A stretch of DNA of 64,000 nucleotides from Gracilaria domingensis (Eukaryota; Rhodophyta; Florideophyceae; Gracilariales; Gracilariaceae), in NCBI GenBank assembly GCA_022539475.1, contig VCMS01000044.1, positions 1-64,000 of the forward strand, read 5' to 3'. Of the stretch, positions 6,737 through 47,216 are shown piece by piece. The notes under the pieces were generated by a model. The model did no database searches, was not told the DNA's origin, and was given only the letters and a program-made list of their open reading frames with translations. The position numbers and the translations under genes are program-made. Every line of letters starts with the position of its first letter. The stretch's first letter is position 1.

Positions 6737-6753
6737 AAGGAGGGGGAGGGGAA
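6737..6753 (+). other. Internal polypurine tract of element 1, second copy
   Basis: This A/G run sits in the linker downstream of integrase. It shares the core CTAAGGAGGGGGAGGG with 3616-3633. Whether it primes DNA synthesis is inference. Confidence 0.4.
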
Positions 6754-14400: not shown

Positions 14401-15678
14401 GTAGTAGTCATAACCGACAGGTTCACAAAGCTCACCAGAGCCATACCTCTGAAGAACCAAACGGCAACGACACTAGCGACAGCCTTCCTGGAGAATTGGG
14501 TCTGCCCGTACGGTGCTCCCATGTACCTACTGACCGATAACGGTTCGAACCTAGCTTCTAAGTTCTTCGAGGCGGTTTGTACAATGCTAGGGGTCAAGCA
14601 CTACTTTACCACGGCCTATCATCCGCAAACAAACGGCCAAGTGGAACGCTTCAATAAGACCCTAGTGGCACGCCTACGGCACTATGTCGAAGAGCACCAA
14701 ACCACATGGTCGGAGTATGTCCAACCATTGACATATGCGTACAACCTCCAGGTCCACAGGGTCACTCAAACAACCCCATTCGACCTGGTACTTTCGCGAA
14801 CACCACATGGTATTATCGTCCAGCCCGGACCTGACCGCTCGGAAGCGGCCGGGACACTCACACCGGCGAAGGTCAAGAGAAACATACTCCAGAAGTTACG
14901 CGCCGCTTTGGCTGCTGCCAAAGTTAAGATGACAGCAGCCCAAGAACGGTATAAAGCGGACTATGACCGAACGGTGAGCAAAGTGACCAAAGTGGTAGCA
15001 GGAGACATGGTCTTCCTTGACGTGCCACCAAAAGGTAAGCGACCAACCCCAGCGGAGATGGAAGAGGACATCCGCCTTGAGGAGGATATCAATTCTAAAC
15101 TACTACCCAAGTCCACGGGACCATACAAGGTGATTCGCTCCGATGAGCATACCGCTACGGTCATAATGGAAGGTTTGGAGAACACGGTCTCCATCGACAG
15201 GATTGTCAAGGCCGCACAACCGACGACAGCGAATACACAACCAATAGGTGAGCCAACGCAGCAAGAAGCGGAGAGGGAGCAAACGTCTCCCATACCCTCT
15301 CCTATGATGAGTCAGCCGAGCGGTCAACCTTCCACCAGAGCCGTAACGGCTGACCCCACGACCCAAGCGACACAGGAGATCGAGCCTCGGCAAGACCAAC
15401 GGGTCACACCACCCACGGGGAGCCACGCACCCCATAACCAAATGGAAGAGTCACACCCTCAAGTAGACACTCAGGAGTGCGCTATTGACACCATTGTAGG
15501 TCACGAACACACCACAAAGGGTATGCGCTACCGGGTAAGATGGTATGGATGGTCGCCCGAGCACGACTCTATGGAACCATCTGGTCATATCCCTAACAAC
15601 TTCATCATCCGATACTGGCGCAAACAAGGGCGAACGCCCCCACCAACTGGTATTGCTTCGCGTGGTACGCGTCTCTAA
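11434..15678 (+). CDS. Pol polyprotein of element 2 (PR-RT-RH-INT-chromodomain)
   Basis: A 1414-residue polyprotein of a Ty3/gypsy chromovirus. In order it has an aspartic protease (DTGAG near residue 50), reverse transcriptase with the YIDD catalytic box near residue 515, RNase H, integrase with an HHCC zinc-binding region and a DDE core followed by NGQVERFN, and a C-terminal chromodomain (VRWYGW near residue 1370). Chromodomains at this place can guide integration to particular chromatin. There is no Gag in this frame, so Gag would have to be a separate frame upstream, outside the window, or the antisense gene. It looks whole. Treated as a virus-like element, so no further detail is given. 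Confidence 0.9.
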   Translation: MDNYPLVTGEESLMDGTEPICFLKHSNYKVNVTLGFTSNHLVPCVTVLDTGAGPNLVNAKLLTNRQLNKLQPCTLTNPMVDANNRPLTVMGALTIMVLIDTMRVRVRFIVVNQLATDCILGTTFIDQHVRAIFPRSKTVLFHNGPRIAIIGNHKGASTKENRTQHQPVPENTLSNKVRLAKAVTIPPMNHLVVKVTCQQPGLLSIQNHSRLAERHMTLMANGIVDNIPTKPFQVYLSNFSNRPVKLPKHTVIGLALPAPRTILTIIPQLSHEVVDAKEGGGSVNSLNSSRTDHMVQRLAEREDQKLELDPVTNWKTEVNIGLEGEELRARILGLLEPFSTMWSGKLGAIKATQHRIGLKPDSRPIHQQPYRTGHKAREVELEEVERMLREGVIEPANSEWASPVVLVQKRGETRMRFCIDYRKLNAVTVRDSYPIPRMDECIDSLGDANIFTTLDANCGYWQIEIPEGDRDKTAFTCHAGLYRFLRMPFGLRNASATFQRALDIILSKVKWTTALVYIDDVVIYSRSIEEHFSHVQVVLQLLQEAGVTLKLRKCMFFNQEVEYLGHTISPGKLEVTKRNIRAVQEAKLPTSQTDIRSFIGLCNVYRRFIKGFAKIAAPLNRRLQKGQPTHFDHLEEDEVEAFYTLKAALLSPPVLALPKTGLPYTLDTDASDAQIGCCLMQEQEDGKLAPIGYWSRALNQAEQNYTVTEKECLAVVWSMLMLRPYLYGVRFTLRTDHDSLRWILGLADASGRLARWRLRLSEFEYDVQYRPGVKHRVADALSRLNTEGLDTDPVDDDIPCFTIEPANHEVNEVLKGYWHDDSTYQVVVETLLPVEEGEHAPITREEFLREQSTDRLCKTLADVLGRKDSHFDVDHNGYLIRRSPLDGALQKVVPESLRQRVLYLSHNPRLSGHPGATRLYYTLRRQFYWPHIANDVYTYVAQCNSCIKTRGGVAKHRKYLKLFPAAGPLEFVAIDILGPLPKTSEGYRFVVVITDRFTKLTRAIPLKNQTATTLATAFLENWVCPYGAPMYLLTDNGSNLASKFFEAVCTMLGVKHYFTTAYHPQTNGQVERFNKTLVARLRHYVEEHQTTWSEYVQPLTYAYNLQVHRVTQTTPFDLVLSRTPHGIIVQPGPDRSEAAGTLTPAKVKRNILQKLRAALAAAKVKMTAAQERYKADYDRTVSKVTKVVAGDMVFLDVPPKGKRPTPAEMEEDIRLEEDINSKLLPKSTGPYKVIRSDEHTATVIMEGLENTVSIDRIVKAAQPTTANTQPIGEPTQQEAEREQTSPIPSPMMSQPSGQPSTRAVTADPTTQATQEIEPRQDQRVTPPTGSHAPHNQMEESHPQVDTQECAIDTIVGHEHTTKGMRYRVRWYGWSPEHDSMEPSGHIPNNFIIRYWRKQGRTPPPTGIASRGTRL
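12262..12275 (+). other. Internal polypurine tract of element 2
   Basis: AAGGAAGGGGGGGG lies inside pol, between protease and reverse transcriptase. The same sequence, one G longer and again preceded by CT, lies at the pol stop codon (15677). Element 1 has a pair with its own variant sequence. Confidence 0.5.
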
Positions 15679-22260: not shown

Positions 22261-23759
22261 GGGTCCGAGTGCCAAAACAGGTTGAATTGGAAGGGAGTGT
22301 ATTGTGTTTGTATACTACTGCATGTTGAGGGTTCTACAGGGGAAGACGTTCAATGACACCTGGGACGGACCCTACGGCGTGGATTTTGGGGGGCGCAAGA
22401 GACTTGGGAGCCACGGGCCTTAAATCGTGTGAAAGCCGAGCTGATCTCACGAAGGCAGGAATGTCGATTTACCCTTGCCGAGGATAGATACTGATTGTCA
22501 AGCGGACGGTAATTACGGGCGTTAGTCGCGCGGTGATGCTGGGCGGCTTTTACGAAACGCATGTATTGTTTTGGAAACCGAACATGACATGCGCCTCGTA
22601 AAAGGCCGACATCGATACCGAACGATACCGAACGGACATCGTACGGACTGTTCCCAAGCGTTAGAATTCCTGTGCTGCATGTTTCACCTAATCGGCCTCT
22701 TGTAAGGCGGGGGGAGTTCACAGTTTCTCAATGCGTTGCGTGCACTAACTTTACGTAATATTGTTCGCTTTAATCGTCCGTCGCTAGCTCCGACTTAGCA
22801 GAGACTGGAGCAACAACGCGCGAAGACTGAAGAAGAAAGAATGTGTGTTACTTGTTTCCAAAAGTCGTAGTTGTGAACGTGAAATACCGATGAGTATGCA
22901 TGTTAACATCGCGGGAACGGTTTGCCTGGGCTGCGGCGCAGAGCACAAAAATTTGTGCCACAAAGGTTCGCAAAACTTGTATTTCTTATCGCCGTTTGTA
23001 ACGTGATCTTCGCTCTCCTTGTCTCGAGAGTCTCGAGTCGAGACGCAAGGTAGAAGGATAGCGCTCCTGCTGTATGCCCTCGAAGTGTGCGTTTTTGCGT
23101 GAGCTCATCCGTCATGGCTCGTGCGCGGCGCACGTTTTGAAGATTGTGCGGACTGCGGACACAGTCTGCCGTCACGAGAGCGCGCAGTTGTTCGTAGTTC
23201 GGGAAGCGTTGTCGTACTTGCTGGCGTTGCCATGAGAGCGTCCGCCTATGAATGTTGACGCGCCGTCGCCGAACGTCTCACTCTGGAGCGCGAAGGTATC
23301 ACAGGTATTCCCATAGCGTTGGTAATATTACGACCAGCTCGTACCTTGATACGAAACTATGTTCGTTCGAAATGGCTTGTCGTGATATGCCTCTATGGCA
23401 CCGATCTCCGGAGGTTGAGAGTGAAAGCGTGAGAAAAGCTGTAGTCGGCAGGGGAGCGCTGAACAGGATGCTTTCCTTCGTGCTGCATAGTACCTTGGTA
23501 TATATACGGTACGATGGATCGTTTGCTGTGCGTGCAGCACAGCGCGGTTTTGTGTGAAATGCAGCTTGACAACTTGTTCTAGTCTACCGGAAATGGACCA
23601 CAAAGTCTTGGCAAGCTTATAAATAGCGTTAGCTTCAGTAGTTGCAGTAAGTGTCAGAATGCTTTTTGAGTTTGAGCCTGCTCCGTGCCAATTTATTTGC
23701 ACTGCGCAGGTGAACGATCAAGTCGAACTGAAATCAAGCCATCCTCGTCTACTGCAAAT
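22261..23759. other. Intergenic, no gene seen
   Basis: Only short shadow frames are present. A small tandem repeat of CGATACCGAA (two units) lies near 22612-22632. The region just before 23760 should contain the promoter of the thiamine-triphosphatase gene, but no clear TATA box was found. Confidence 0.4.
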
Positions 23760-24509
23760 ATGTGGGCGTTCCTCCCCGCCACAAGACCTTTCTTGTCCCG
23801 TCAAACGTTTGGTCCACGGTGTATCAATTCCGTCTCTATTCTAGGATCCTCAGCATCAAAGTGCACAAGAAGGTTAAACTTTAGCCGATGGATTTGTGCG
23901 CAAGCAAAACCGGATCTCATCGAAGTTGAATCGCGATTTCGCGCCTCGCCACAGGCAAGAGAGGCACTCAACATGTTTGCGGGAGACTGTAAACAAGTTC
24001 GGTTCAGAGATCGCTATTATTGCGAACAGTTGGCGTTGTTGGACAAATGGTTGCGTCGAAGAGAGGACCAGTGGGAGCTCAAAATTCCCGTCGAGCTTGG
24101 TTCTCGTTCTCAACGCGGAGCTGTTGTTTACAAAGAACTCGTTGGAAGTGCTGCTTTGCAGCATATTGGCCAGCTTGGATTATCGACGAGCGCGATGCAA
24201 GTGTACGCCTCCATCACCACTGTGAGGAGCATTTGGGCATTCGAGTCTCGATTGCCGTGGGGAAATTATCAGATGCATATCACCGCTGACGAGTGCTTCG
24301 CAGATGATGGCTTCCAGTATAGCATCGGTGAGATTGAGGTTCTCGTGGCTCGAGATGAGCAGGTTGATGGTGCCGCCCAAGCTGTCGAGCATACCTGTCG
24401 ACAACTTGAGCTGGAAAAGATTGACAACAGTGGTGGAAAGCTTATGCGTTACTTGTATGAGAACAACTCCAAGCTGTTCAGAAAACTGAAAGACAGCGGC
24501 GTGGTATGA
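23760..24509 (+). CDS. THTPA: Thiamine-triphosphatase-like CYTH-domain phosphohydrolase
   Basis: Predicted to hydrolyse thiamine triphosphate to the diphosphate. From the ATG at 23760 the protein has 249 residues. The CYTH start motif reads LIEVESRF (about 53-60), close to LIEVERKF of animal ThTPase, with Lys of the ExExK metal/phosphate motif replaced by Arg. Further family marks are WLRRRED (about 97-103), WELK, YKEL (about 124-127), FQYSIGEIEVLV (about 185-196) and a KLMRYLYENN tail matching the animal enzyme's KLIVYLQRF. The first ~50 residues, beginning MWAFLPATRPFLSRQ, look like a plastid or mitochondrial targeting peptide. The frame opens earlier (23685 region) but without a family match, so 23760 is preferred. 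Confidence 0.82.
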   Translation: MWAFLPATRPFLSRQTFGPRCINSVSILGSSASKCTRRLNFSRWICAQAKPDLIEVESRFRASPQAREALNMFAGDCKQVRFRDRYYCEQLALLDKWLRRREDQWELKIPVELGSRSQRGAVVYKELVGSAALQHIGQLGLSTSAMQVYASITTVRSIWAFESRLPWGNYQMHITADECFADDGFQYSIGEIEVLVARDEQVDGAAQAVEHTCRQLELEKIDNSGGKLMRYLYENNSKLFRKLKDSGVV

Positions 24510-26060
24510 GACATGGCTAGGAAGGGAAGGCTGCGTGTGACTCAGCTTGTGAGCATGTGTCGCGTCCGTTTGTTCGCAGGTTAACAAGTTGTCTACAGTG
24601 CTCCTTTGCTTCTCTTGGCGCACGGTTCTGCACTGCGCCAGTTTCTTTGCCGAACAAAAGCAATGCATTGTTCGACGCCAGGCCGTGTCAAGAACGTGTT
24701 TCGGAACGAAACAGAGCACACCCAGCCCCGCTTCCATTCCAACCACAACCCACTGCACTTGCGTCCATCAGATCATCTTCAGCCGCTATAATCTGCCTGC
24801 TGCCCCGGCTCTCGCGCCGTCAAGACGACCAAATGATCCGAGCAGAATTCACTCAACGCCAAGAGTGCCTTTTTGGATGAAATAAGGTTGGTTGCTGCCC
24901 CAATCATTTTCGGGACGTCACCTCCTTGCGCAAGATTCCTTTACTTCCTGAAAGGAATGTGCTCGGCTCCTATAAACCCATCAGAGCGACGAATTACAAG
25001 ATATCTTTGTCTACACTTGCATCTTTGTTTCAGGTGCGCGGCTCCCAAGATAAGCCATCTATCGTCATCATGATGGTGATGCTATCCTAGCAGTGGGCTC
25101 GTGACATTGACAAGATGATAGTGCTTCGCGGGCAATGCGTCATCATGACGGATGATAACCCCATACCAAGATGATTCCTCCACACCAACATGACTCCCCC
25201 AGTTGACTAGATTTATTCGCGCTTTTCATATACATTATACAAGTGGAAAGCGCGGGTTCACTGCAAGACAATACTGTAGCCTTCAGAGTTGGCCCCATTT
25301 CAGCGCTTCCCAATGCGTCATGCAGAGCGGTGTCGACTTGAGCGTGCATACTTCTCTTTAATTGGAAATTGACAAATCATGAAGCAACGATTGTTGACAG
25401 CCCATCTTCTTCAAACAGGAGGAATCGCAAGAGCCTCGAACAAAGATTGGTTCCAACCGTTGCCCAGACACGCTAGAAACGCAAATTTGCGACACTTAAA
25501 CAATCACTCTTTCGCTGTGCTCAGCAAACGAGCTTCAGCGACATGTTTGTTGCGGGACCCACGGAGAAAAGAGGAACAAGTAAAATTGTCACGCGATGCA
25601 AACGGAAGAACGGGAAACAAAATTAGTCTTCAACCGAGAGAAATTGTTAGGTTAGGACGCGAGACTGGAATGGATGCAGGAAGCAATAGATGGTTATGAG
25701 CGATGCAGTGGTACACAACCTCTTCTTACCCTTGGTACGCGTGGCCTGTTCCACCAGACTGCAGAATCGTTGCATCGATTCAAACACAGTCTTTACTGTA
25801 CACTCCCTCGCAAAGCCAAATGGCACAGAGGGAAAAACCATTCGTCGTCGGAAACGTCCACGTTCGACAACCCATAGCAATCCTTGTTACTGGATGAGTC
25901 TCTCTTGTTCAAGCTCTGTCTTGCCCTTCCTCCTACATGAGCACGGCTTCGGTTCTTTAGCTTGATACGCTCTTTCTTTCTTCCATTCTTTTCAAACCGC
26001 CCATCGGAGCTGAATTCTTGGTCCGTTTGCTCTTTCATCAGAAGCATTTCGCACTTTAGA
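24510..26060. other. Intergenic, one weak open frame
   Basis: A plus frame from an ATG at 25379 to 25699 (106 codons, basic, no motif) could be a small gene or first exon, but nothing supports it beyond length. Further short plus frames overlap it at 25674-25965. A cluster of TCATCATGA-type words lies at 25065-25155. No other structure was seen. Confidence 0.35.
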
Positions 26061-26744
26061 ATGCCTTCGAACGACTTGGGGCGTCTTTCAGAGAAACAGC
26101 GCGAAACGCTTATGCGTGAGTGTGAGCATAGAATCAAGAGATTCGGCTGTGAACAATCAATGGTGAATCTTGCTACTCTTATATTCCTCGACCCTACCAA
26201 GCAAGGCAACTATCAACAAGCAATCCAACTGTGTGAACGTGCAATCAAACAGCACAACAGTTGTTTGGGGATGTATGCTCTTGCAGAACATTTTTACTTT
26301 GAGGGAACGAAGAAGCAGAAAAAGCGAGTGATCCCTCTGCTAGAATCGTCCATACGACTAAAGCCGATGGAAGGGTCATTGTACTTTCTGGGCAAGGCTT
26401 TGTTTTATGGCAAATTTGGTGAAACGGATCAACCGAGAGCGATCAATCTCCTGAGACGAGCGCTAACCATGGATGAAAACTACATCACAATGGGCAGTCT
26501 AGCAAAGATGTGTTTAATCTATGAACACGAAGATATAAAGAAAAAGGATGCACTTGAAATGTTTGCAAAGGTCATTGAAATAGGTAAGGACCCGTACCAT
26601 ATGCGACAGTTGGCTAAACTGTACGAAATTGGCACGCCTGTGTTGAAGCCTTGCGAGAGATGTAGGTTGAAATGGACGCAAATGGCTGAAGAATATGAAC
26701 AGAATTCTGATTCTCAACAGTTATCACCCTCTCCGAATCAGTAA
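26061..26744 (+). CDS. TPR/Sel1-like repeat protein
   Basis: A 227-residue helical repeat protein from the ATG at 26061; the frame is open further upstream but has no earlier ATG. After a basic N-terminus it shows repeated units of the form A..L(C/Y)..G....A/I.L...AI....(M/S), for example NYQQAIQLCERAIKQHNSCLGMYALAE and QPRAINLLRRALTMDENYITMGSLAK, typical of Sel1/TPR solenoids that scaffold protein complexes. A CERC pair lies near the C-terminus. It faces the CMPK2-like gene tail to tail with about 500 bases between stops. Substrate or partner unknown. Confidence 0.7.
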   Translation: MPSNDLGRLSEKQRETLMRECEHRIKRFGCEQSMVNLATLIFLDPTKQGNYQQAIQLCERAIKQHNSCLGMYALAEHFYFEGTKKQKKRVIPLLESSIRLKPMEGSLYFLGKALFYGKFGETDQPRAINLLRRALTMDENYITMGSLAKMCLIYEHEDIKKKDALEMFAKVIEIGKDPYHMRQLAKLYEIGTPVLKPCERCRLKWTQMAEEYEQNSDSQQLSPSPNQ

Positions 26745-27243: not shown

Positions 27244-29415
27244 CTACAATACCTTGCGCCACAAGTTGCGATTGACGAAGTGCACGATCTGTCGTAAAGA
27301 TTCATGCATCGCTTGGTCCCCGTCTTCAGAGTTTTGCACTTGAAGCACAGGAATGCTGAGATCAGCGAACTCCGAAAGAAGCTCTGCACCCTGAACATCT
27401 AAAGCCTCATGGAGTTCTGCACACTCGTGAGACTCGTCTATCATCGGTATGCGTTTTGAATTCTCTTCAATACGTCGTCGCCGAATGCATGTTTCTACTT
27501 CAATTCTTAAGTGAACAAAGAGAACAACGGCTTTTTCCAGCTCGGACCTGATCGCGGCCTTAGCCCTCTCGATGACTTGTCCTGCATTCTGCTGCGATTC
27601 GGTCGATGATTTCTGTCGGAGTAGAGACCAGGCCATGTTCCCTACATGCCATGTCTCTACTACGCGACTAGATGTGGTCGTCCTGTCCCGTTCACACTCA
27701 GCAGAATGAACAACATCGTCCCAAGGCGTGGTTAACGCAAGTTTTTCTGCTGTGCCGTCTCCAGTTCTGTGCCCACCAGCAACGATCTTGTCTTTGTCTC
27801 GCAAAATGTCGCCAAGTTTAGGGTGAAATGACCAACCGAATATGGCAGCTAGTCGTTCGCCCACAGTTTTCTTGCCGGAAGTATGAGTGCCAAGAATAGC
27901 GACCGTAACCGGCAATACAGTTTTTCCATGTAGAACACCACATGAAGATTGTAGGGAAGTAGTTTGTATTGGGATAGACCACCCACTCTCATCACGAACC
28001 CAATCGTACGATTGGGTCGAATCACGGGAAAATAAGCTTCCAGTTCGCAGTCTCATGCGCAGTGGGACAAATTTTGTGAGATAGTAGCCTGTTTCGACTT
28101 CCAGCTCACTCGTCGACGTGCCCTCAAAGAGTAACGACTGTGTTTTTTCCTTACGCTTCGATCGTTCGCAGATGCATCCGTAATTAGAAGCCGATAAAAC
28201 TGGGCTCGGAGTGATTCCCATTTCCACACATTCCGCTTCTGTAACTTTGCGTAGTATCCCGTCTGCTCTCCAGCGGTACTCGTTGGGGTACTCTCCTTGA
28301 ACCCATATAGCAGACGCTAAAGCATTTCTTCGTGGGTGGAGCCAGTCTTCCATATGGTCTACGGAGAATGAGAGAATGCAATCGTCATCAACTGCCTCAA
28401 TTTCATGGTTCTCTAAGAATACATTTCGGTTGTCTGTATCGTTTACGCAGACTTGATAATTCCATATCTTGCGCTCGTATCGCTGGCCATTTTCTTCGCT
28501 GCAGTACCCAAGAGATGAAGATACCCATCGAAACAATCCAAGAGGGTTGTGACGAAAGTATTGCATAGGTAAAAGTTGACGGAACATCCTTTCCGTGATA
28601 ACCTTGTAACTTTCTCTCAGAACATCTTCCTTCGATTGATTAGCTGATAGATGAAAAGATTTTCGGGGTCCTGATTTTCGCTCCCACACTCGCACAATGC
28701 GCCTTCCGAGATTCTCATCCTTGTTAAGACGATCATCCCATGGATTGTGGTTCAAGAGTTTTCCTCGCCTGCTGATTCGCTCTCTTCTGACCTGGCTGTC
28801 AACGTGAAGCACAATCATTAGGTCTGGAACATCCAAGTCCTTTGGCCATTCGAGAAGGGACGTATGCAATGCATCAACAGACTCGGGTCCTCCAGAAGTG
28901 TTCTTCCATCCTATGGAGTAGGCACAGGTTGAAGAATACCATCGATCAACAAAAAGTATCGCATGGGGATCCTTCTCCGACGTGACACGCATTTCGTGTT
29001 GCAAGATGTAGTTGCTCACCATATAAAACGCTCTAGACACCAATCCTCCACACTTATCGAAAATGTCTCGAACTGAAGCAACGGAAGCAGTCGGTGTCCC
29101 AACAGCATACCCGTTAAACCTCTGTCCTTCTATCTTAAGCGTTTGTGCTGCCAGGGAATTTACCAGCGTTGTCTTCCCAGTGCCATCAAGACCTTCAACA
29201 AGTACAACGAAAGGCGGTGTGGTAGGCCGTTTAAACAGGTGATACCCAACGACGTTTAAAAGTTGAAAGAAAGCATCCAAACTACCTTCTTCCTCTTCGA
29301 GGTCTTCGTCAAGTTGATTCGATTTCCTACTCTTCTGAAGAATAGTTGCGGCTGTCAAAAAATCGCTGAAGAAGCCTTTATCCATGTTTGTCTTAGTTCT
29401 GGTGCTTGTCTCCAT
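27244..29415 (-). CDS. CMPK2: CMPK2-like nucleoside monophosphate kinase with a second P-loop domain
   Basis: The 723-residue product joins two P-loop kinase regions. The first (about 66-270) belongs to the thymidylate-kinase fold and matches vertebrate mitochondrial UMP-CMP kinase 2: Walker A EGLDGTGKTT (74-83), a VRDIFDKCGGLVSRAFYMVSN stretch close to CMPK2's RKIFDDEPTIIRRAFYSLGN, DRWYSST (157-163) and WPKDLDVPDL. CMPK2 phosphorylates CMP, UMP and deoxy forms. A middle part (about 310-490) is unrecognised. The second region (about 503-720) has Walker A GTHTSGKKT (509-517) and looks like another nucleotide or nucleoside kinase. A second ATG lies at codon 11; no strong targeting peptide is evident. 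The viperin gene lies upstream on the same strand, 1.86 kb away, as RSAD2 and CMPK2 are neighbours in vertebrates. The likely shared job is making CTP for viperin; that is inference. Confidence 0.85.
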   Translation of the reverse strand: METSTRTKTNMDKGFFSDFLTAATILQKSRKSNQLDEDLEEEEGSLDAFFQLLNVVGYHLFKRPTTPPFVVLVEGLDGTGKTTLVNSLAAQTLKIEGQRFNGYAVGTPTASVASVRDIFDKCGGLVSRAFYMVSNYILQHEMRVTSEKDPHAILFVDRWYSSTCAYSIGWKNTSGGPESVDALHTSLLEWPKDLDVPDLMIVLHVDSQVRRERISRRGKLLNHNPWDDRLNKDENLGRRIVRVWERKSGPRKSFHLSANQSKEDVLRESYKVITERMFRQLLPMQYFRHNPLGLFRWVSSSLGYCSEENGQRYERKIWNYQVCVNDTDNRNVFLENHEIEAVDDDCILSFSVDHMEDWLHPRRNALASAIWVQGEYPNEYRWRADGILRKVTEAECVEMGITPSPVLSASNYGCICERSKRKEKTQSLLFEGTSTSELEVETGYYLTKFVPLRMRLRTGSLFSRDSTQSYDWVRDESGWSIPIQTTSLQSSCGVLHGKTVLPVTVAILGTHTSGKKTVGERLAAIFGWSFHPKLGDILRDKDKIVAGGHRTGDGTAEKLALTTPWDDVVHSAECERDRTTTSSRVVETWHVGNMAWSLLRQKSSTESQQNAGQVIERAKAAIRSELEKAVVLFVHLRIEVETCIRRRRIEENSKRIPMIDESHECAELHEALDVQGAELLSEFADLSIPVLQVQNSEDGDQAMHESLRQIVHFVNRNLWRKVL

Positions 29416-30099
29416 TTCGACCTTCTCTGAACCAGTTCAAACCACTCAGTGCAGTTGCCGTCTTACGCTCAGGTTTCTTCTACGCTGTTCAACGACGCTG
29501 ATCTCTAGAAGCCAAATCTCACTCCTGTAAATCGTTGGAGTATGAGTAGAGGCGGTGATGGGTACTTTTTCGCTTCTTATTCACAACGGCACGCGGGCTC
29601 GTTAGCAATCGTTTCCGATTTACTTGTACTGCTGCAGTGCGTCCATCGCGTTCAGATACAGTAGTTGTTTACCGAGAATGTATAGCATGAGAACGGACGA
29701 ATGATATAATCTTCGGATTCCAGAACTCTTAAGGTATGAATATCGAGAGATGTGGGCCTCGTTCAGAATCCCAGAGGTAGATTCGTTTCGCTTCCGTTTC
29801 AGACATTAATATCGTCAACGTAATTTAATCATAATACGATTATGAACAAAATGGCGAAAAGCATTCCAGTCCGGCGTGGAACTCTTCGCTGAAAGCACAG
29901 AATCGATGCAGAATCGAAACTGCATGAAAGTGACAGCCGGAGTAGAGTCAACGAACGAACGAGACCTTTAGTTAAGGGTAGTTAAAAACACGTTGTGCTA
30001 AGTGGACACGCCGCGTACTGCGATGTCAAGCGATAGACGTCGTCGGTTGACGGCTGCTGCAGTTCGCTGCAATACGGTTCGCTCCACCTATGCTCCACC

Positions 30100-30170
30100 A
30101 ATACCATACCTTCGTGCTCAGCTGGAGGCCTCCAGGGGAGGTCTCCAGCTGAGCACGAAGGTATGGTATT
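30100..30170. repeat. Hairpin: 34-bp arms with one mismatch, 3-base loop
   Basis: Arms 30100-30133 and 30137-30170 are reverse complements except for one position, which would be a G-U type pair in RNA; the loop is AGG. The outer flanks (ACC and CGGT) extend the pairing with one bulge. Confidence 0.95.
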
Positions 30171-30334
30171 CGGTGAGTACAATCAAGTTGCAGAATCACA
30201 CATCTATTTATTAGATATTAATCTTTACCTTCGTAGACTCAATACCTTCTCGTCGAGCGGAAAACAGGGTTGCAAATTACAAATGTTGGGACAACGCAAA
30301 GATGGGCCATTTTTAAACCTTTTGGGACTAAAAG

Positions 30335-30364
30335 TTCTTATGTCTAGTGAGCTAGACATAAGAA
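30335..30364. repeat. Palindrome unit 1 (TTATGTCTAG core)
   Basis: The arms are TTCTTATGTCTAG and CTAGACATAAGAA (13 bp, perfect) with loop TGAG. The ten-base core TTATGTCTAG is shared with the units at 30521 and 30609; the outer three bases are TTC/GAA here. Confidence 0.95.
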
Positions 30365-30520
30365 AGAGCCAATGAGAAGGAAAGAAATGACTCGATCAGG
30401 CGGCTGAGGCAGAGCGGTGTAACAAACCATGTTGATTTAAATACACGTGGTACTCGAGTTCGAATGGTATTGGTTTGATTTCAAACAGATTGAATTTGTA
30501 GCCAATTGAAAAGATTGTTC

Positions 30521-30548
30521 GCTGATGTCTAGTGAGCTAGACATAAGC
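30521..30548. repeat. Palindrome unit 2
   Basis: The arms are GCTGATGTCTAG and CTAGACATAAGC (12 bp, one mismatch) with loop TGAG, same orientation as unit 1. Confidence 0.9.
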
Positions 30549-30608
30549 CAAGCAGACAAGTGGCACGCTGTCAACGATTGGTTATAGCGGCTACCCAATC
30601 ATGTTGCC

Positions 30609-30638
30609 CGCTTATGTCTAGCTCACTAGACATAAGCG
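30609..30638. repeat. Palindrome unit 3, inverted
   Basis: The arms are CGCTTATGTCTAG and CTAGACATAAGCG (13 bp, perfect) with loop CTCA, the reverse complement of TGAG, so this unit lies in the opposite orientation. The outer bases are CGC/GCG, differing from unit 1 on both sides while keeping pairing. Confidence 0.95.
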
Positions 30639-30677
30639 AAGCGTCTCAAAAGGGTTAAACTGCATCGATACCGCCGG

Positions 30678-30694
30678 CTGTACCGTCGGTACAG
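30678..30694. repeat. Small hairpin CTGTACC-GTC-GGTACAG
   Basis: Perfect 7-bp arms (8 with the inner pair) around a 1-3 base loop. The same arms with loop TTT recur near 42788. Confidence 0.85.
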
Positions 30695-31273
30695 TTTTGG
30701 CCACAACAGTACGTAACACGGCAACGTGGCTTCTCACAGTCGACCGTCAGAAGTCCTACGACACAGGCTGTGGCGGTGTCGTGAGCCGTGACCGTGCAGG
30801 CGTTACCCTTGGGTACAAACAGGACACAAGTCCTCGAGAGTCCGCGAGTCGAGACTTCAAGGCTATAAGGATATAAGGCTGACGCCTGCGCGGTCACGCT
30901 AAGCTTGCGAAGGTCGTGCACTGCACTTGCTTCGCTGCATGGCCAACCAATCGAAGTGCTTGCGAGGAGAGCTCTTTGCACATTAGTGCTCTTCGGGGCA
31001 CTAGCCTTATTACGACCTCATCACCGTCATGATTAATGTGATAGCAAAGAGCCTCTTTCATATGCACAGGCTAGGAGAAACAGCAGAATGTACGGGTTAC
31101 AGGACTGTCACTTATCTCGTCGGGAATACTAACAGAAGATTCACGCAAACAATTGGATGCAGATCTTTACGCACTATGATCATTTGATGCTTTCTAGCTA
31201 GTTCAAACATCTGATATCGTTTCTCGTTGAAGCCGCTGTAGCCAAAGAAGTCCTAAAAGGTACCCGTGCAGCC

Positions 31274-32323
31274 TCATTGATCTCTATCGCGCCTCCAATC
31301 GTACACTCCACCTCGCTTCGTGAACATGCTTTGGTCAAACCCACTCTGCTCGATAGCCTTGTACACGCCAACATCCAAAATGCTTGCGCTGGGAACCTTT
31401 CCGCCACTGGAGCAATCGAGGAAGCGGAGTTCTTCATCCAACAGAAGATATGAATTCTGCATCACGTTATTGGGTTCGGGAATCAACTGTTCAATATCCG
31501 AATGTCGAAACACAAAGCTCTGATACTGGCGATCTGATACAACGAGCGGCCGGGCATCCCGAAGCTCTCCTGGAAGCCCTGAGTTTTCGTCCTTGAGAAT
31601 GAGAACTTGGAATACTTTCCACCTCATAGGATCGAGCTTTCGCACGTTCTCGTTCATGTCCTCTTCCCAGTTAAGGCTGCAAACAACTGTATTCATTTTG
31701 AACATGATATTGTGTTTAGCGCATTGGTCTCTCACTCTTAGAATACGCTCAATATGCTTATTGTTCGCGTCACCACCACGTCCGATTGCAGCGTTCGTCT
31801 TCGGATCAAATGAGTCAACAGATACCCCCAAAATATCTACGTAACGCCCGTATTGCTGCATCCATTTCGGAGTGATGAGAGAACCATTACTGATTATGGA
31901 AACCGCCATGCCCAACTCGTAGGCCGTCGTGCATAATTCACCCAACAGTCCATGCTGCAGAAACGGCTCTCCGCCTGCAAAGTTAATTTTCTCTGTTCCA
32001 GCTTCTCGTAGCTTCTGCAAACCTAGACGAGCCTGGTCTATATCAAGAACGGTAGTATTCTTCTGAGTGTGGAAGCAGAATTTGCAGCTGTAGTTGCAGG
32101 CTCGGGAGATGAAGTAGTTTACAGATTGGACGGCGGACGAAGCCATGTGCCGATTTCGGGCAATAACCTCATTCTTTGAACCCTTCGGACTAGATCTCGA
32201 ACAGCATTTCGGAGAAAGTGTGAACGATTGTGTCCGAAGAGGAGAAAAGCGATGAAGCAACGCCGGGTGAGACACAAACAATAGAGGTCTCAGCACCAAT
32301 GATGACGCTCCATCACCAAGCAT
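31274..32323 (-). CDS. RSAD2: Viperin-like radical SAM enzyme
   Basis: A 349-residue protein whose residues 67-343 match viperin along the full catalytic part. The CX3CX2C cluster motif is C76-C80-C83 (CNYSCKFCFH), followed by NFAGGEPFLQ (114-123), SNGSLI (145-150), the DMNENVRKLDPMRWKVFQV stretch (222-240), SYLLLDEELRFLDC and SILDVGV, then FTKRGGVYDW. Viperin uses SAM and a 4Fe-4S cluster to turn CTP into ddhCTP, a chain terminator of viral polymerases. The animal C-terminal Trp is absent; the protein ends a few residues after YDW. The N-terminal ~60 residues are Ser/Arg/Leu-rich without acids at first, like an organelle-targeting peptide, and replace the amphipathic helix of animal viperin. 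An internal ATG (32146) would give a protein without it. The CMPK2-like kinase gene lies downstream on the same strand. Confidence 0.93.
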   Translation of the reverse strand: MLGDGASSLVLRPLLFVSHPALLHRFSPLRTQSFTLSPKCCSRSSPKGSKNEVIARNRHMASSAVQSVNYFISRACNYSCKFCFHTQKNTTVLDIDQARLGLQKLREAGTEKINFAGGEPFLQHGLLGELCTTAYELGMAVSIISNGSLITPKWMQQYGRYVDILGVSVDSFDPKTNAAIGRGGDANNKHIERILRVRDQCAKHNIMFKMNTVVCSLNWEEDMNENVRKLDPMRWKVFQVLILKDENSGLPGELRDARPLVVSDRQYQSFVFRHSDIEQLIPEPNNVMQNSYLLLDEELRFLDCSSGGKVPSASILDVGVYKAIEQSGFDQSMFTKRGGVYDWRRDRDQ

Positions 32324-35463: not shown

Positions 35464-36786
35464 CTAGTGGGCATGGAGATGGCCATGATTGTTCACTTGA
35501 TGATTGCGAAGAGAGGCGTAATGATAGAAGGGACGGTTACAACACAGATGAACTTCATGTCTTTGGACAAACGCGAGATGCTGTTCTAAAGAACGCATGC
35601 TTTGAAATTGGATATCGCAATCTTCATATGGACACACATTCATTGCCAAGGATCTCAACATTGCTTGAGGAAGAGGGCCGCCCATTTCACGCAGATCTCC
35701 TGATAAGCATTTCTTCACGTTCACATAGCCGTTTGGACCTGCGACACCTGGATAAAATTCAATAGGGTCCTCCACCTGCGGTTCGGGCGGTTGCGGCCTT
35801 TGTTGACGAGGTTGAGGTGGCTGCTCAGCTTCTACCGGCGGGAACAACGAGCAATTGCATCCAGGCATTCCATGCACATTGTCCGAAGTTGCCTCTAAAG
35901 TCATGTACGCGGCACCGCACGAATGACAAAAGCCACAGCCACAGGTGCATCGAACAAAATTACAATCCCCGTTACGCTTTTCGATAAGATGGCCACATTC
36001 AGGACATCTGGTCCATTTGTTGAGGCGAGTGAGAAGCGAGAGCGACTCTAGATCTTGCTGGACGGCATGCTCCTCACAAGTTTCGTCCTCGTGCCAGACA
36101 CAGCGGCAGACGGCACAGGTCTCGGTGTCGCAAAAGGGGCAAAGAACTCTGGCGATTTGTGCGATGTTTTGGCCGCCGGCATCGTCGACAACCCAATCAA
36201 ACGGCATGGCGCACTTGGAGTTGGCGCAGTACCGAATCTTCTTGGTGTAGTCTTTGTTGATGATGAGGCGTTCCAACGCTTCATAGTCCTCTCCAGTTCC
36301 TGACAGAGCCTTCAAGCAGGCATCGTTTTCCAAGTTGATTCTGCAACTTGGACATGTGATAGGGTAAGGATGTCCTCTTTGAATGACCAGTCGCAAGTAT
36401 TGCGCCATGCAGGGGAAGCAAAAGTGGTGCTTGCAATCGTTTGATGCAAACACCAAGTGTGGAAGAAATTCATCGAAGCATATCTGACATTCCACAGTAC
36501 TTTCTTCTTGTTCTAAACACTCCTTGGGCTCTGGTTCTACGCAGCAGGCGTCTGGCGTCAGGCCGTGTTGCGTGGCTGCCAGACTGCGCGCAAACTTTGA
36601 ATCGCTGACGACACGCTGATTGGATGCTTCTAGCGCCTGGGCGAGGGCTAGACTTTCGAGCATATCGTACGAGGTATGTGCGTGGGTGTCGAGGCCGAGC
36701 ATGTCTACGACTGGGAGGTCGCCGGCGCCGTTCTCCCTAAGTTGCAGACGGAGGGCTAGGAGGTAGTCGGTGTCTGGAGCAGCCAT
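35464..36786 (-). CDS. RBR-type E3 ubiquitin ligase with C-terminal zinc fingers
   Basis: A 440-residue RING-between-RING ligase, which carries ubiquitin on a Cys of RING2 before passing it to the target. RING1 spans C100-C148 (CQICFDEF..CPSC), IBR about C187-C238, and RING2 begins at C261 (CPECGHLIEKRNGDCNFVRC), where C275 aligns with the catalytic Cys of parkin/HHARI. A Pro/Gln-rich linker (about 318-340) leads to two C2H2-like fingers (about C385-H403 and C415-H435). The N-terminal 90 residues are acidic and helical with no domain I know. The gene is a single exon and shares a 627-bp divergent upstream region with the first ankyrin gene. Confidence 0.88.
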   Translation of the reverse strand: MAAPDTDYLLALRLQLRENGAGDLPVVDMLGLDTHAHTSYDMLESLALAQALEASNQRVVSDSKFARSLAATQHGLTPDACCVEPEPKECLEQEESTVECQICFDEFLPHLVFASNDCKHHFCFPCMAQYLRLVIQRGHPYPITCPSCRINLENDACLKALSGTGEDYEALERLIINKDYTKKIRYCANSKCAMPFDWVVDDAGGQNIAQIARVLCPFCDTETCAVCRCVWHEDETCEEHAVQQDLESLSLLTRLNKWTRCPECGHLIEKRNGDCNFVRCTCGCGFCHSCGAAYMTLEATSDNVHGMPGCNCSLFPPVEAEQPPQPRQQRPQPPEPQVEDPIEFYPGVAGPNGYVNVKKCLSGDLREMGGPLPQAMLRSLAMNVCPYEDCDIQFQSMRSLEQHLAFVQRHEVHLCCNRPFYHYASLRNHQVNNHGHLHAH

Positions 36787-37413: not shown

Positions 37414-39450
37414 ATGATGTCCGCTTCGCAGGGCGAGAGGCTTATCTTGGCTGCTCGTCATGGCGATGTGCCTTGTGTGTTGACTTTGCTTGACGAGGGT
37501 GTCCATGTCGATTATCAGGGTGTCAAACGATTTACCGCTTTGCTATGGGCTGCTCGTTTAGGACATGTTGATGTGATTAACTTGTTGTTGCAACGAAACG
37601 CAAACGTGAATCACGTCAATAATCTCAACCGCACTGCTTTAAGTCTGGCCTCCGGTTTTGGTCAACGTCAAGTCGTTCAAGTATTGCTGCAAGCTGGTGC
37701 TCATGTCAATCATACCGATCGTGATGGCTACACTGCTTTGAGAAATGCTGCGTGTTACGGACACCTTTCTGTGGCCAATACCCTCATTCAAGCCGGTGCA
37801 AATGTCAATTGTGTTGATAAGCGCTCTATCTCGCCCCTTATCATTGCTGCTCGGAGAGAGCGGCCTCTTCTGCTGCGTACCCTGATTGAGAATGGCGCTC
37901 AACTTGAAATTTCCGATCATTGTGGACGTACAGCGCTGTTTACGCCTCACATGGCTTGTGTTGATGCCCTGTGTCAAGCGGGTGCTGACGTACATCATGT
38001 GGATAACGATGGTGATACCCCACTAACATACGCTGCAATGCATGCGGAATCGTCTGTCGTAAAACGCTTATACGATGCTGGTGCCAACCCTTATCATATC
38101 AATTCGTATGGAGCCACAGCATTAATGCTTGCCGCTGCTTCCGGAAATGAGGCCACCATCGACGTACTTCTGAAAGCGAATGTAGACGTCAACTTCGCCA
38201 ACCTGAATGAAAGCACCGCTCTTATGTGGGCTGCGCATCATGCTCAAACAGCCGTCGTGAAGATGTTGTTGAATGCAAATGCGCACGTTAACGCTATTGA
38301 TAAACAAGGTAATACCGCTATTCATTTCGCACTTGATCGTTGCATCATTAACCGCAGCCAGGATATCGCCACCATTCTGGTCGAAAGCGGTGCAGATTTA
38401 AATATCCCTAATCATAATGAGGATACGCCGCTTTCTCTTTTACCGAGCACCTCTAATTTGCATCGAACTTTGCTTGAGCAGTTTGACGATGATGTGGATA
38501 TGATGTGGCATCGATTTGTGGTGGGCGTTCAGAGTTCGGTCTCGACAGAGCAGCTGCTTGACGTGCTGCGCGGCACCAGTATACGTTCATTGTATTCGTT
38601 ATTGGCGGCTCACAACTTGCTTCTGCTACTCGTTCGCACGGGGCAGTTTACAGAAAGCCAGCTGTCTTGTTTGAGAGGGTCAGCTGGCTTTTTGCTGGAG
38701 AACGTATATCTCCCCGTTTCAAAATTATCTCTTAGTACAGAGGAGCACACGTTGGCGTCGGTTGTGATAAGATACGCAGAGGCCGTTGGTTTCATACCTG
38801 AATGCGCTACAGTGTGGGTGAACCATGCGATAGAAGTACGTTCAGAAATTCGCGAAAACCGTCTTCTGCTGCAGGTTGCAATGGAGAAGGTTATGGATGA
38901 TATCTGCTCACTGCATACACGGGTGTATCGAGTGGAAGTATGGACGCATGAGGCGTCGGAAGAATTTCAAAGGCTGGCGCAGAACAATGAGAAGATGGTG
39001 GAAGATATGAAGCAGTTGTACCACAATCTGAATGAACTGCACAGAAATCTACGGCAGCAACAACGACGCCTGATTTACACAGCCATAGCTCGCACTGTAC
39101 TTTCAGTCATTCCCGTGTTTGGAAAGGCGTTGTGCGATGCGACGTACGCCGGCGTCGAGCTGTTCTGCGGACTTGCGGCAGAGGATATGGTTGAGATTGG
39201 CACCGACGTTGTAAAAGGAACTGTTTCGCTTGGCATTGCTTTGGACATGAGCGATCCGAGATATGTTCGAAAGCTGACCAGCGCGGCGTTCCTGCCGCAA
39301 CTGGAGCCCATTGCCAGGGAGCGCTTAGAGTTTGTCGTGTCTCAGAGCGACTTCAAATGTGTGGAGGCGCTGCACCGCGGGCTGCTGACGGTTGAGGAGC
39401 CGATCGCGATCGCGAACAAGGGCAACGAGCGTGGCGCGAACGTTTCATAA
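37414..39450 (+). CDS. Ankyrin-repeat protein 1 with paralog-specific C-terminal domain
   Basis: A 678-residue single-exon protein. About ten to eleven ankyrin repeats fill residues 8-345 (TALLWAARLGHVDVINLLLQRNANVNHVN and similar), a fold for protein binding. A helical part (about 350-490) and a coiled coil (about 495-550) follow. The C-terminal domain (about 558-655) starts with the hydrophobic stretch TVLSVIPVFGKALCDATYAG and continues ELFCGL..MVEIGTD..KG.VSL...DMSD, ending near R.RLEFVVSQSDF. The same C-terminal domain occurs in the genes at 43874 and 47217. The hydrophobic stretch could insert in a membrane or form an oligomer core. I know no named family for it. The second codon is also ATG; the first is used. 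Confidence 0.85.
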   Translation: MMSASQGERLILAARHGDVPCVLTLLDEGVHVDYQGVKRFTALLWAARLGHVDVINLLLQRNANVNHVNNLNRTALSLASGFGQRQVVQVLLQAGAHVNHTDRDGYTALRNAACYGHLSVANTLIQAGANVNCVDKRSISPLIIAARRERPLLLRTLIENGAQLEISDHCGRTALFTPHMACVDALCQAGADVHHVDNDGDTPLTYAAMHAESSVVKRLYDAGANPYHINSYGATALMLAAASGNEATIDVLLKANVDVNFANLNESTALMWAAHHAQTAVVKMLLNANAHVNAIDKQGNTAIHFALDRCIINRSQDIATILVESGADLNIPNHNEDTPLSLLPSTSNLHRTLLEQFDDDVDMMWHRFVVGVQSSVSTEQLLDVLRGTSIRSLYSLLAAHNLLLLLVRTGQFTESQLSCLRGSAGFLLENVYLPVSKLSLSTEEHTLASVVIRYAEAVGFIPECATVWVNHAIEVRSEIRENRLLLQVAMEKVMDDICSLHTRVYRVEVWTHEASEEFQRLAQNNEKMVEDMKQLYHNLNELHRNLRQQQRRLIYTAIARTVLSVIPVFGKALCDATYAGVELFCGLAAEDMVEIGTDVVKGTVSLGIALDMSDPRYVRKLTSAAFLPQLEPIARERLEFVVSQSDFKCVEALHRGLLTVEEPIAIANKGNERGANVS

Positions 39451-43873: not shown

Positions 43874-45250
43874 ATGGTGCACAATGGGGGTCAACAACTC
43901 CTTAACGCAGCTCGTGCCAATTACGAAAGTGAAGTGCAACGCCTTCTGAGAACCGGCGTTGATCCCAACTACCAGGATGAAAATCGTTACACCGCTCTGC
44001 ACAAAGCTGCTGCTCAAGAGAATGGGCTGGGTGTATTAGAGCTTTTACTTGGACACAAGAAGACTGATGTGAACATACGGAACCGAAACAAACAAACACC
44101 TCTTATTCTAGCCGCTCGAAACGGAAATTACTACGCTGTTCAAAACCTTTTGAAACGCAAGGCCAAAGTCGGCTACCAGGACAGGTGGAGATGCAATGCT
44201 TTGGATTATGCGACGCAAGTTAGTCACGAGGACATTGTTAATGTTCTTAAGAAAGCTGGCGCTCGCCCTACAGCGAGAAAACATATAGCCAAGAACTCGT
44301 TTCGTCGCGAAGTGGTACCCAAGGATACAGCAGAGACGATGCTCACGAAGGTTCTTGTAGATCCTACGGTCAGAATCACGGACGATCAACTTCGTAATGT
44401 GTTACAAGGGTCCAAAATCACCGACATGCGTCTATTCCATTCTGCAAACTACCTAATCCACATGTTGAAGAGGATGAGACACTCTGCCGTGAAGGGGTTT
44501 TGTGACTACAGAAGCTCTGGTGGTTTCGTGAAACTAAATCTTTTCTATAGCGTTTGTCGTTTGCCACTTAACCGAGAAGAGACGTTCATGGTCAAGCAGT
44601 TGGCTGATTACGCTGCGGCTCGTGAACTTATTGGACCTGAATCACCCGCGGACGTGAAGGAAATGCTAAACGTTTATAAAAATATTGGCATTCAGAAGGA
44701 GAAGTATCGGAAGCTGACAAATGACGTCTTACATGAGCTGCTCAAAGTTGACAAGCGCATTTGTAAAGTGGAACAAATGTCGACAGAAACCCGTATGGAG
44801 ATGAAGAGACTTGCCGACAATGAGAAACACGTGAATAGAGACATGAAGAGGATGCTCGATTTCCTTAATGAGCTACACGGGGCTTTGCAGAGGAAGGAGA
44901 GACGCGACAGGTATGTGGGAATAGCCCGCTTTTTACTTTCTGCTATTCCAATCTTCGGGACTATGTTAGGCAACGCTACCGACGCTGCATATGGAGCAGC
45001 GGAAGTGTTCTGTGGATTGACTACTGAAAGTATGGTCGGCATTGGAACTGACATGCTAAAGAGCGGCGTATCATATGGACTTGGTGCGGATCTGAGTGAC
45101 ATCACCAGCGTGCGTGCTGTGACGAGTAGACCGTTCTTGTCCAACTTGGCCCCAAAATCCCGAAAAAGAATAGAATTCATTGTACAGAAAAGCATGTTCA
45201 GAGGTAGAGAAAACCTTCGCAAGGACCTTAAGGCTGTTGACGATGACTAG
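43874..45250 (+). CDS. Ankyrin-repeat protein 2, paralog of the genes at 37414 and 47217
   Basis: A 458-residue single-exon protein. It has three to four ankyrin repeats (about 6-130; YTALHKAAAQENGLGVLELLL.., TPLILAARNGNYYAVQNLL..), a helical middle (about 150-270), a coiled coil (about 275-345) and the shared C-terminal domain from residue 350 (FLLSAIPIFGTMLGNATDA, EVFCGL, MVGIGTDMLK, DLSD, KRIEFIVQKSMF). Compared with ankyrin protein 1 it has far fewer repeats. It is closer to the gene at 47217 (shared AA.NGNYYAV..LL and RW..NALDYA). The shared tail with variable ankyrin number suggests a constant effector or membrane part and a changing recognition part; that is inference. Confidence 0.85.
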   Translation: MVHNGGQQLLNAARANYESEVQRLLRTGVDPNYQDENRYTALHKAAAQENGLGVLELLLGHKKTDVNIRNRNKQTPLILAARNGNYYAVQNLLKRKAKVGYQDRWRCNALDYATQVSHEDIVNVLKKAGARPTARKHIAKNSFRREVVPKDTAETMLTKVLVDPTVRITDDQLRNVLQGSKITDMRLFHSANYLIHMLKRMRHSAVKGFCDYRSSGGFVKLNLFYSVCRLPLNREETFMVKQLADYAAARELIGPESPADVKEMLNVYKNIGIQKEKYRKLTNDVLHELLKVDKRICKVEQMSTETRMEMKRLADNEKHVNRDMKRMLDFLNELHGALQRKERRDRYVGIARFLLSAIPIFGTMLGNATDAAYGAAEVFCGLTTESMVGIGTDMLKSGVSYGLGADLSDITSVRAVTSRPFLSNLAPKSRKRIEFIVQKSMFRGRENLRKDLKAVDDD

Positions 45251-47216
45251 AAGGTAGGCGACCACAGCCAAAAATATCAGGAGTTCAAGTTCACACGGTG
45301 CATGGGGGACGATAACAAGATACCTGTAATGTAATTGTAGACTACATCATTGGCGAATATCGGGTGTATGTTAGAATGCCAATCATGTTCTTTAAGGTTT
45401 TAAAAAACTCACTAATTGTCAATATTTACACGTATCCTCCGTTCACTAATATTTGAGCTTCAAATATGCAATTAATCTTTGTGTTTTATAATAGTATTGC
45501 AAAATGCTCTGTTGAACAGGCAAATTATATGCGCAGGTGTCGCAGTTGCCCAGTGGCTTTTCCATAAATTAATGCCTTTAAAGCCATCTAATTGAAAGGT
45601 ATGGATCAAAAGATGATAACCGAAAGATGCTTCCATTGAAAAGGCCATACGCACCTTTCAGCTTGCATGATGCACTGGAATTTAGAGGATGGCTAGATGA
45701 GAAGAAGAATTCGTCTCGGTCGGAAGAAGCACCACTAATACCTACAGCGCCGGGAAAGCCACATCTCGTAGATGACTCTGCCGTGGTATTCATCACGACA
45801 AATGACGCCATGAAGCGGGAATATGTTCGGGCATCAGCAGCATTGACAGGCCACTCTGCTCTTGATGTCAAGTGACAGCAAATAAGGTGATGAAAATGAA
45901 CGTCAACGAAATATATGTTTACACGTTCATGTAAATCCATCAGCAATACCCTTACTGTTTGTACTGACAAATTGTTGGGTCCTGGGAATGCGATGTTTTC
46001 ACTGTTGGCTCAGAAATTCATAACCCTTAACAGGGATAAATGCGTCACATTTAAACAAACATTATGTTAGTTGGTTTAAGGCCTTACGCGGCACCTTTGA
46101 GCTGAACCAAGGTGTCGACCTGCCCGGCACGCGCGTTTCAATTGAAACTTTCAATCCCACAGCGAACACGTTGAGACGAATCTAACCTAAGTCTAAAATG
46201 TAGAACCTGCATATGTTTCTTTAGGATACCTACAAGCAATCCCCTGTGTTTGTTCTTGAAATCTGCAAGACAGAAAGCGGTAGGAGGGAAGTACACCTGC
46301 AGGTTCACCTTGTGCTTCGCCATAGTTAATGGTACAACTCGTAGCATCAAATATCCCGAGAGGAAATACCTTCGTAATTTAGTGTTCAGCGCGAAATTCA
46401 ATGGGTGTCAAAATTTTTGGCATTCTCATGAGAGAGAGAGAGCTGCTTTTGCGGATAGCTCCGCTAACGGGTCGGAAAAGTTGTGCTATTGGTCGGGCAG
46501 ACGGTAAAAGAGACGGAAATAGATGTTCCAAAGCTGAACACTTCTCGATTCTTTCCCCCACACACGTTTGAGCGTGACGTAAATTAGCGAATTCCGGTTT
46601 TCTTTACGTTCTCTTGCATTTCTTCTTACGAGTGGCACATATAAATCAGTGTTTAACATAGACCTGACCTCGACTGTACGTGTAGTAGATTGGGCCAACG
46701 TCAGAGATAGATTAGAGGCGAGATGGTCTCGAGAGGTCAGGCGCCGGTTGTGGCATCACAAAACCATATGTACTCTCCAATACAACAATCCCAATAGCAA
46801 AAGGGAGGACATCTTCGAAGATTCGCAATACATTTCGTCTCTTTCTTAGGAAATGCAAACAGTTAATCACTCCCTTCCTGGGAGTACACGAAGAGTAAGA
46901 AGTACAGCTAAACATACCAATCACACTTTTCTGAAGTAGAGAATGATGAACACAAGAATGTCTGAGTGATTGCGGTCTGCGCAACTTATACAACTGTATC
47001 GGCTCATTTGCGTCTAAGACGCTACCTGTGCGGAGCAAACTGGCATGAAACCAGATACATCCCTTCACAAGGCATGTCTTGCATGCCTTTGTCTCCAGGA
47101 ACGCAACTTGCAGAATTCTCCCTTCTCTAACACATTTAACCTCACTTCCGACGGATATCTACTTGAAACACGTTAGCAATGCTTCTCCACCCATAGTACA
47201 CATCATTTGTTTTGTT
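45251..47216. other. Intergenic, no gene supported
   Basis: Several short frames but none with motifs. It contains a (GA)n run near 46429-46441, the palindrome GTTTCAATTGAAAC near 46133-46147, and the small hairpin AGGCATG-TCTTG-CATGCCT near 47070-47088. Confidence 0.45.

Follow-up and report, generated by a model that had tools for sequence, protein, structure and literature searches.

The closest described counterpart of the locus studied here is the vertebrate RSAD2–CMPK2 pair; in humans, the genes for viperin (RSAD2) and the kinase CMPK2 are neighbours transcribed away from each other, and they have a promoter region in common (PMC12889620; divergence also PMC10058120). The kinase domain of CMPK2 is C-terminal (PMC9132166); the protein is held to supply cytidine triphosphate (CTP) for synthesis of 3'-deoxy-3',4'-didehydro-CTP (ddhCTP; PMC10058120, PMC12889620) and has been placed upstream of viperin in defence against a porcine coronavirus, PEDV (porcine epidemic diarrhea virus; PMC10058120), and a fusion is cited for some lower organisms (PMC12889620). 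A CMPK2-like kinase also adjoins 15% of bacterial viperin genes (PMC11249213), and viperins are widespread over eukaryotes according to a paper whose text contains neither "kinase" nor "CMPK2" (PMC10732462). The linkage of viperin and kinase genes as such is thus already known from vertebrates and bacteria. Kinases associated with viperins in prokaryotes are said to have been described by Bernheim and colleagues in 2021, and eukaryotic viperins linked with nucleotide kinases were reportedly described by Shomar and colleagues in 2024. Our window, i.e., the whole stretch of 64,000 nucleotides that was analysed, is the start of Gracilaria domingensis contig VCMS01000044.1 (C44) in a 77.9-Mb assembly of 680 contigs that we searched along with it, and contains a viperin gene followed by a gene for a CMPK2-like kinase. 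What looks new about this pair is its occurrence in a probable red alga, the head-to-tail arrangement and, most of all, the predicted fusion of the kinase with a split barrel and a deoxynucleoside-kinase-like domain; we know of no paper in the open literature on an algal viperin–kinase pair.

The viperin gene is an uninterrupted open reading frame (ORF) for 349 amino acids (31274..32323, minus strand), identified by profiles, matches in the PDB, alignment and tree. It is followed head to tail on the same strand by an uninterrupted ORF for a kinase of 723 amino acids (27244..29415, minus strand), delimited from the ORF, a search for relatives and a predicted model. A reading made earlier from the sequence only had placed both genes at exactly these ends, and the gap of 1,858 bp between the ORFs (29416..31273) agrees with its figure of 1.86 kb to the kinase start; its other figure, a kinase frame opening 1.1 kb past the viperin stop, did not hold up, since this frame (730 amino acids) opens only 7 codons before the ATG. 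Like the vertebrate RSAD2–CMPK2 locus, the algal pair combines a CMPK2-class kinase with an adjacent viperin from the eukaryotic clade, but the human genes diverge from their common promoter region (PMC12889620). Protein-query searches of the alga's own assembly found no second copy of either gene; the viperin query gave one other, weak match (a radical SAM gene, 29 bits), and the sole other match to PF02223 is a deoxythymidine monophosphate (dTMP) kinase on contig C163 (L009, 138 bits). A red-algal host, supposed by the sequence-only reading as well, is likely because the genome holds matches to the phycobilisome linker family: 14 in the assembly, 10 of them outside contig C680, which has four (one frame of 878 amino acids) and is probably the plastid. 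Another kind of phycobilin-bearing alga would be conceivable too.

Judged by its amino acid sequence, the product of the first gene is a viperin of the eukaryotic clade. In profile searches, it passes NCBIfam NF038283 (264.8 bits, cut-off 180) and matches the PADLOC pVip profile (E 1.4e-75), but it stays below the cut-off of the narrow antiviral viperin model TIGR04278 (350.5 versus 450 bits) and is therefore not filed under that class. Nine distinct PDB sequences match it with E 7e-92 to 8e-77; five carry the name viperin or RSAD2, and the remaining four are entered as "Radical SAM core domain-containing protein". A MoaA/NirJ-type identity was rejected, the best non-viperin NCBIfam model reaching 63 bits. 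The translation contains all four motifs that had been quoted for it, CX3CX2C, NFAGGEP, MRWKVFQV and SILDVGV (core NFAGGEP, RWKxFQ and SILxVGV), in agreement with the alignment, and the radical SAM motif CxxxCxxC, read from the translation, is CNYSCKFC at residues 76-83 (32075..32098, minus strand). Five residues that we take to be CTP contacts from their counterparts in mouse viperin (K209, N211, R234, K236 and Y292) are invariant across an alignment of 19 viperins, the window's own among them. Residues 1-65 align poorly with most relatives, and the C terminus reads RDRDQ, without the final tryptophan of animal viperins. A phylogeny outside the viperins, which would have spoken against the sequence-only reading, was not obtained: in a tree of 50 viperin rows (picked by hand, as were the kinase rows below) the protein falls inside a eukaryotic clade of 21 rows with 100/100 support, and its sister is P0031, a protein from eukprot that bears the name of a Trinity transcript.

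The first domain of the kinase (residues 65-283; 28567..29223, minus strand) appears to be CMPK2-like rather than an ordinary dTMP kinase, as sequence comparisons support and one borderline topology test tempers. The kinase passes the Pfam model Thymidylate_kin (32.4 bits, cut-off 27) but not the NCBIfam cut-offs for dTMP kinase (NF005923, 46.6 of 193 bits; TIGR00041, 37.4 of 83.25 bits). Its first domain scores 81 bits with human CMPK2, a sequence written out by us rather than retrieved because the 40 proteins found included no named animal CMPK2, and 20 bits with the alga's own dTMP kinase. A tree of 43 rows that includes this human row separates CMPK2-like from dTMP kinases with 99/99 support. 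In a tree of 39 rows (the same minus the human row, L019, P0177 and P0184), one clade of algal and dTMP kinases is rejected at the borderline by the approximately unbiased test (p-AU 0.055), and one clade of algal and trypanosomatid-type kinases is not rejected (p-AU 0.274). The latter kinases (P0158, "UMP-CMP kinase, mitochondrial", and P0159-P0162) align over the domain and part of the N-terminal extension (E 2.3e-32) but, at 274-282 amino acids, are too short for the further domains of the algal protein. Whether the kinase stands nearer to dTMP kinase, the other doubt attached to the sequence-only reading, is thus answered in favour of CMPK2 by the bit scores and the 99/99 split, with the p-AU value as a borderline note on the other side. 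The thymidylate kinase labels of both Pfam and NCBIfam, together with a grouping that escapes strict rejection, could suggest an ordinary dTMP kinase enlarged by fusions; given the unreached NCBIfam cut-offs, the difference of 81 to 20 bits, the 99/99 split and the separate dTMP kinase of this alga (L009), we consider this quite improbable. A housekeeping dTMP kinase role was likewise rejected in view of L009. We call the domain CMPK2-like, not CMPK2, because it sits at residues 65-283 of 723 and thus N-terminally, in contrast to CMPK2, where the kinase domain is C-terminal (PMC9132166) and preceded by a long N-terminal region.

The sequence-only reading had recognised this first domain and overlooked the rest of a three-domain fusion. 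A predicted model of good confidence (predicted local distance difference test, pLDDT, 87) joins the CMPK2-like kinase to a PNPOx/PhzG-type flavin mononucleotide (FMN) split-barrel-like domain (residues 284-498; 27922..28566, minus strand), and to a second P-loop kinase domain with a deoxynucleoside-kinase-like fold (residues 500-723; 27247..27918, minus strand). CMPK2, a mitochondrial enzyme with CMP, UMP and dUMP as substrates, has, to our knowledge, neither the barrel nor a second kinase. In Foldseek searches with the model, the predicted barrel matches PhzG (4hmt; E 4.5e-7, probability 1.00) and further PNP oxidases, flavoproteins with which it would share its fold. The barrel assignment rests on this fold match, since profile matches are weak: 1ci0 at E 0.014 and, with the profile of the middle domain by itself, PNP oxidase (6h00) at no better than E 0.5. 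PF12766 had 3 matches in the genome, and the kinase gene was not among them; the PNPOx family is absent among 25 of the 26 Pfam families shown for 20 kinase-family members, and no PNPOx is found among the 50 rows listed in the VIA listing, which says nothing against the fold. The C-terminal domain is predicted to share its fold with deoxynucleoside kinases and AbmG.

It seems probable, with moderate confidence, that viperin and kinase form a ddhCTP antiviral module in which a bifunctional pyrimidine kinase supplies or recycles pyrimidine nucleotides. Viperin would remove the 3'-hydroxyl of CTP (or uridine triphosphate, UTP) to give ddhCTP (or ddhUTP), which terminates chain synthesis by viral RNA polymerases, and the neighbouring kinase would raise or restore the pyrimidine nucleotide pool that viperin draws on. 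The CMPK2-like domain would phosphorylate the monophosphates CMP and UMP and perhaps ddhCMP, and the second domain may originally have been a nucleoside kinase turning cytidine or ddhC into the monophosphate. With a nucleoside kinase and a CMPK2-like kinase domain joined, one polypeptide would therefore carry two successive steps, and the barrel between them might have a structural role only. The genes, their families, the folds of the predicted model and the physical linkage in this genome are direct results; the substrates, the coupling of both enzymes in one pathway, their antiviral role and a linkage maintained by selection are deduced from them. Red algae have, as far as we know, no interferon-type immunity, yet the viperin and CMPK2-class kinase side by side in this one would give a group for which few defences have been described an antiviral pathway that can be put to the test. 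The fused kinase could also serve as a biochemical handle on why bacterial, animal and protist viperins keep gaining nucleotide kinase partners, and bears on whether such a partner feeds CTP or re-phosphorylates ddhC.

Prokaryotic viperin systems (PADLOC pVip, VakA and the pVip–kinase fusion) resemble the algal locus in that a radical SAM viperin adjoins a nucleotide kinase. At 8 of 14 plasmid viperin places, the ones looked at, four viperins have a same-strand neighbour kinase annotated as deoxynucleoside or thymidylate kinase (Nostoc, Sphaerospermopsis, Anabaena and Pseudoalteromonas) and four do not. These four kinases and the one beside a Vibrio viperin (L045) score 182-230 bits with VakA, which we read as viperin-associated kinase, and the algal kinase 34.7 bits (E 5.8e-9) with this profile, which has no curated cut-off. 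The plasmid kinases, L045 and a further bacterial kinase, from Uabimicrobium (L039), are single domains of ca. 195-211 amino acids, unlike the 723-residue algal fusion, and a profile of its second kinase domain found no match in the four plasmid VakA kinases. The PADLOC profile PDC-M51B matches the algal kinase at E 4.1e-16 and fits its domain 1 (28567-29223) better than VakA does. Its companion PDC-M51A gives a weak match to the viperin (E 0.003), so that PDC-M51 may be another pair of radical SAM enzyme and CMPK2-like kinase.

On two IMG/VR contigs, L017 and L020, two of the domains have counterparts encoded separately: the gene for a CMPK2-like kinase, which scores 64 bits with the algal domain-1 profile, lies 566 bp from a gene homologous to the last domain. 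Along L020:8749-13393, an integrase gene is followed by the homologue of the second kinase domain, a gene of GreA/GreB type, the CMPK2-like kinase and a methyltransferase. Within the stretches examined, neither contig has a viperin, and 6 kinase and 12 viperin loci of viral contigs, located with hidden Markov models, have no place in common. Further scans of viral contigs, one with the second domain and one with the L020 kinase, led to L017 and L020 only. A tblastn search of phages with the second kinase domain gave no match, nor did searches of plasmids with the second-domain kinase of L020 and the kinase of L039. These separate neighbouring counterparts suggest a route by which such fusions arise. 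A bolder reading, which we regard as rather unlikely, would have fusion of ancestral neighbouring genes as on L017/L020 create a distinct algal machine, in which the fused kinase phosphorylates cytidine or ddhC twice in succession next to viperin, and thereby both feeds viperin and re-arms spent ddhC, and the barrel is perhaps a redox partner or nucleotide sensor. That the alga acquired viperin and kinase jointly from a bacterium or virus seems very improbable to us: pairs of this kind do exist in prokaryotes, and L017/L020 carry both kinases near an integrase, but the viperin nests within the eukaryotic clade, none of the 12 viral-contig viperin loci has the kinase within the stretches examined, and those kinase-search matches that bear an organism or transcriptome name (most bear none) are all eukaryotic.

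Searching with the kinase gave 29 proteins, one of them the window's own; of the other 28, 14 cover 98-100% of its length, and full-length relatives are seen in a diatom, a transcriptome and further contigs. The named relatives are diatoms (P0012 and P0022), and the remaining ones were drawn from transcriptomes (eukprot and mmetsp) or further contigs. Alignments of this family comprised 20 and 29 sequences. For linkage elsewhere, we compared longest-contig sizes between 33 kinase clusters (27 of the 29, without the window's own P0001 and the contigless P0002, plus 6 of the 40 proteins) and 110 of the 120 viperin clusters listed out of 1,893 matches (without the window's own and 9 lacking a size). 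Three kinase/viperin pairs share both exact size and source label (P0007/P0044, 8131, lgn; P0009/P0145, 4703, ena; P0017/P0128, 2860, lgn), and each of these contigs is long enough for both proteins, judging by protein lengths. Under a null model that smears the sizes of the same 110 viperin rows and ignores source, 0.39-0.42 matches are expected by chance, and at least 3 occur in 0.6-0.75% of simulations. We take the three coincidences as an indirect hint of linkage in other organisms; with the one genome seen directly, they give partial support to the earlier idea of a pair kept linked.

The two genes might also be neighbours by chance, with the kinase working in general pyrimidine salvage without any tie to viperin. 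Linkage is seen in one genome only, no such kinase is seen at 27 of the 29 other viperin ORFs examined, which come from genome and viral contigs, and long kinase contigs such as those of P0004 (17.6 kb) and P0005 (26.0 kb) match none of the 110 viperin rows by size. Moreover, with head-to-tail genes separated by 1.86 kb that include a dispersed repeat, no shared promoter is obvious. This element of ca. 350 bp (30313..30660) with internal 26-bp palindromes, by look resembling a miniature inverted-repeat transposable element, is 82-97% identical to 39 other genome places (40 of 119 candidates scored), and its palindrome has 66 exact places in the genome, two of them within 30313-30660; part of the present spacing may therefore be inserted sequence. 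A pairing known from vertebrates and bacteria would nevertheless hardly arise again by coincidence (about 1 in 10^4 per given neighbour, a rough estimate from gene density), and together with the three size coincidences this leads us to regard mere neighbourhood as unlikely.

Several observations weigh against a ddhCTP module built on a CMPK2-like kinase. Besides the borderline p-AU value, the 39-row tree puts the kinase linked to the Vibrio viperin together with dTMP kinases (98/92). Against the domain-1 profile of the alga, the four plasmid VakA kinases score 33-36 bits and the alga's dTMP kinase scarcely less (28.5 bits), so the kinases paired with viperin in bacteria and in the alga may be of separate lineages; the algal kinase in turn matches VakA-type proteins only slightly better than dTMP kinase does. 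A CMPK2-like kinase stands beside only 2 of the 29 other viperin ORFs above 85 bits (17 from genome contigs and 12 from viral contigs, some clipped by contig ends), those of Uabimicrobium (L039) and Vibrio (L045). This count comes from a separate scan; the broad kinase profile includes the L039, L045 and L017 proteins, so their high scores with it mean little. Linkage was viewed directly in one genome, with contig-size coincidences alone elsewhere. In the putative barrel, positions 335 and 336, which we presume to be FMN contacts, are E and N; 17 of 21 rows with a letter have R/K at 335 and 18 of 21 have T/S at 336; residues that look FMN-contacting in relatives thus appear altered in the algal protein. 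The second kinase domain has "ETWH" at what we take to be the "ER/DR" motif of deoxynucleoside kinases, and Lys533 where 25 of the 27 family rows with a letter have Glu. From its spacing after strand 2, Lys533 would occupy the place of the catalytic Glu; the domain may therefore be inactive here and is not filed as an active deoxynucleoside kinase. Finally, CMPK2 knockdown gave no significant drop of ddhCTP in human cells induced with Epstein–Barr virus (PMC12889620).

The gap also contains an inverted repeat with 41-nt arms, 90% complementary, around a 3-nt spacer (30093..30177), for which the genome search found no further place. Upstream of viperin lies a RING/IBR-type E3 ligase-like gene (35464-36786, minus strand), and past the kinase 3' end are genes for a CYTH-domain protein of the triphosphatase-type family (23685-24509, plus strand) and a Sel1/TPR-repeat protein (25962-26744, plus strand). 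Contig C82:157627-169310 has three radical SAM matches with identical scores at 5,593-bp spacing, either a tandem triplication or an assembly artefact. Elsewhere in the window, an open Ty3-like retroelement polyprotein of 1414 amino acids (11434-15678, plus strand; pieces at 3754-8126) has by eye a reverse transcriptase, an integrase and a chromodomain-like end, and three ankyrin-type-repeat proteins by eye (37414-39450, 43874-45250 and 47079-48578, plus strand) are similar in their C-terminal part and probably tandem paralogues.

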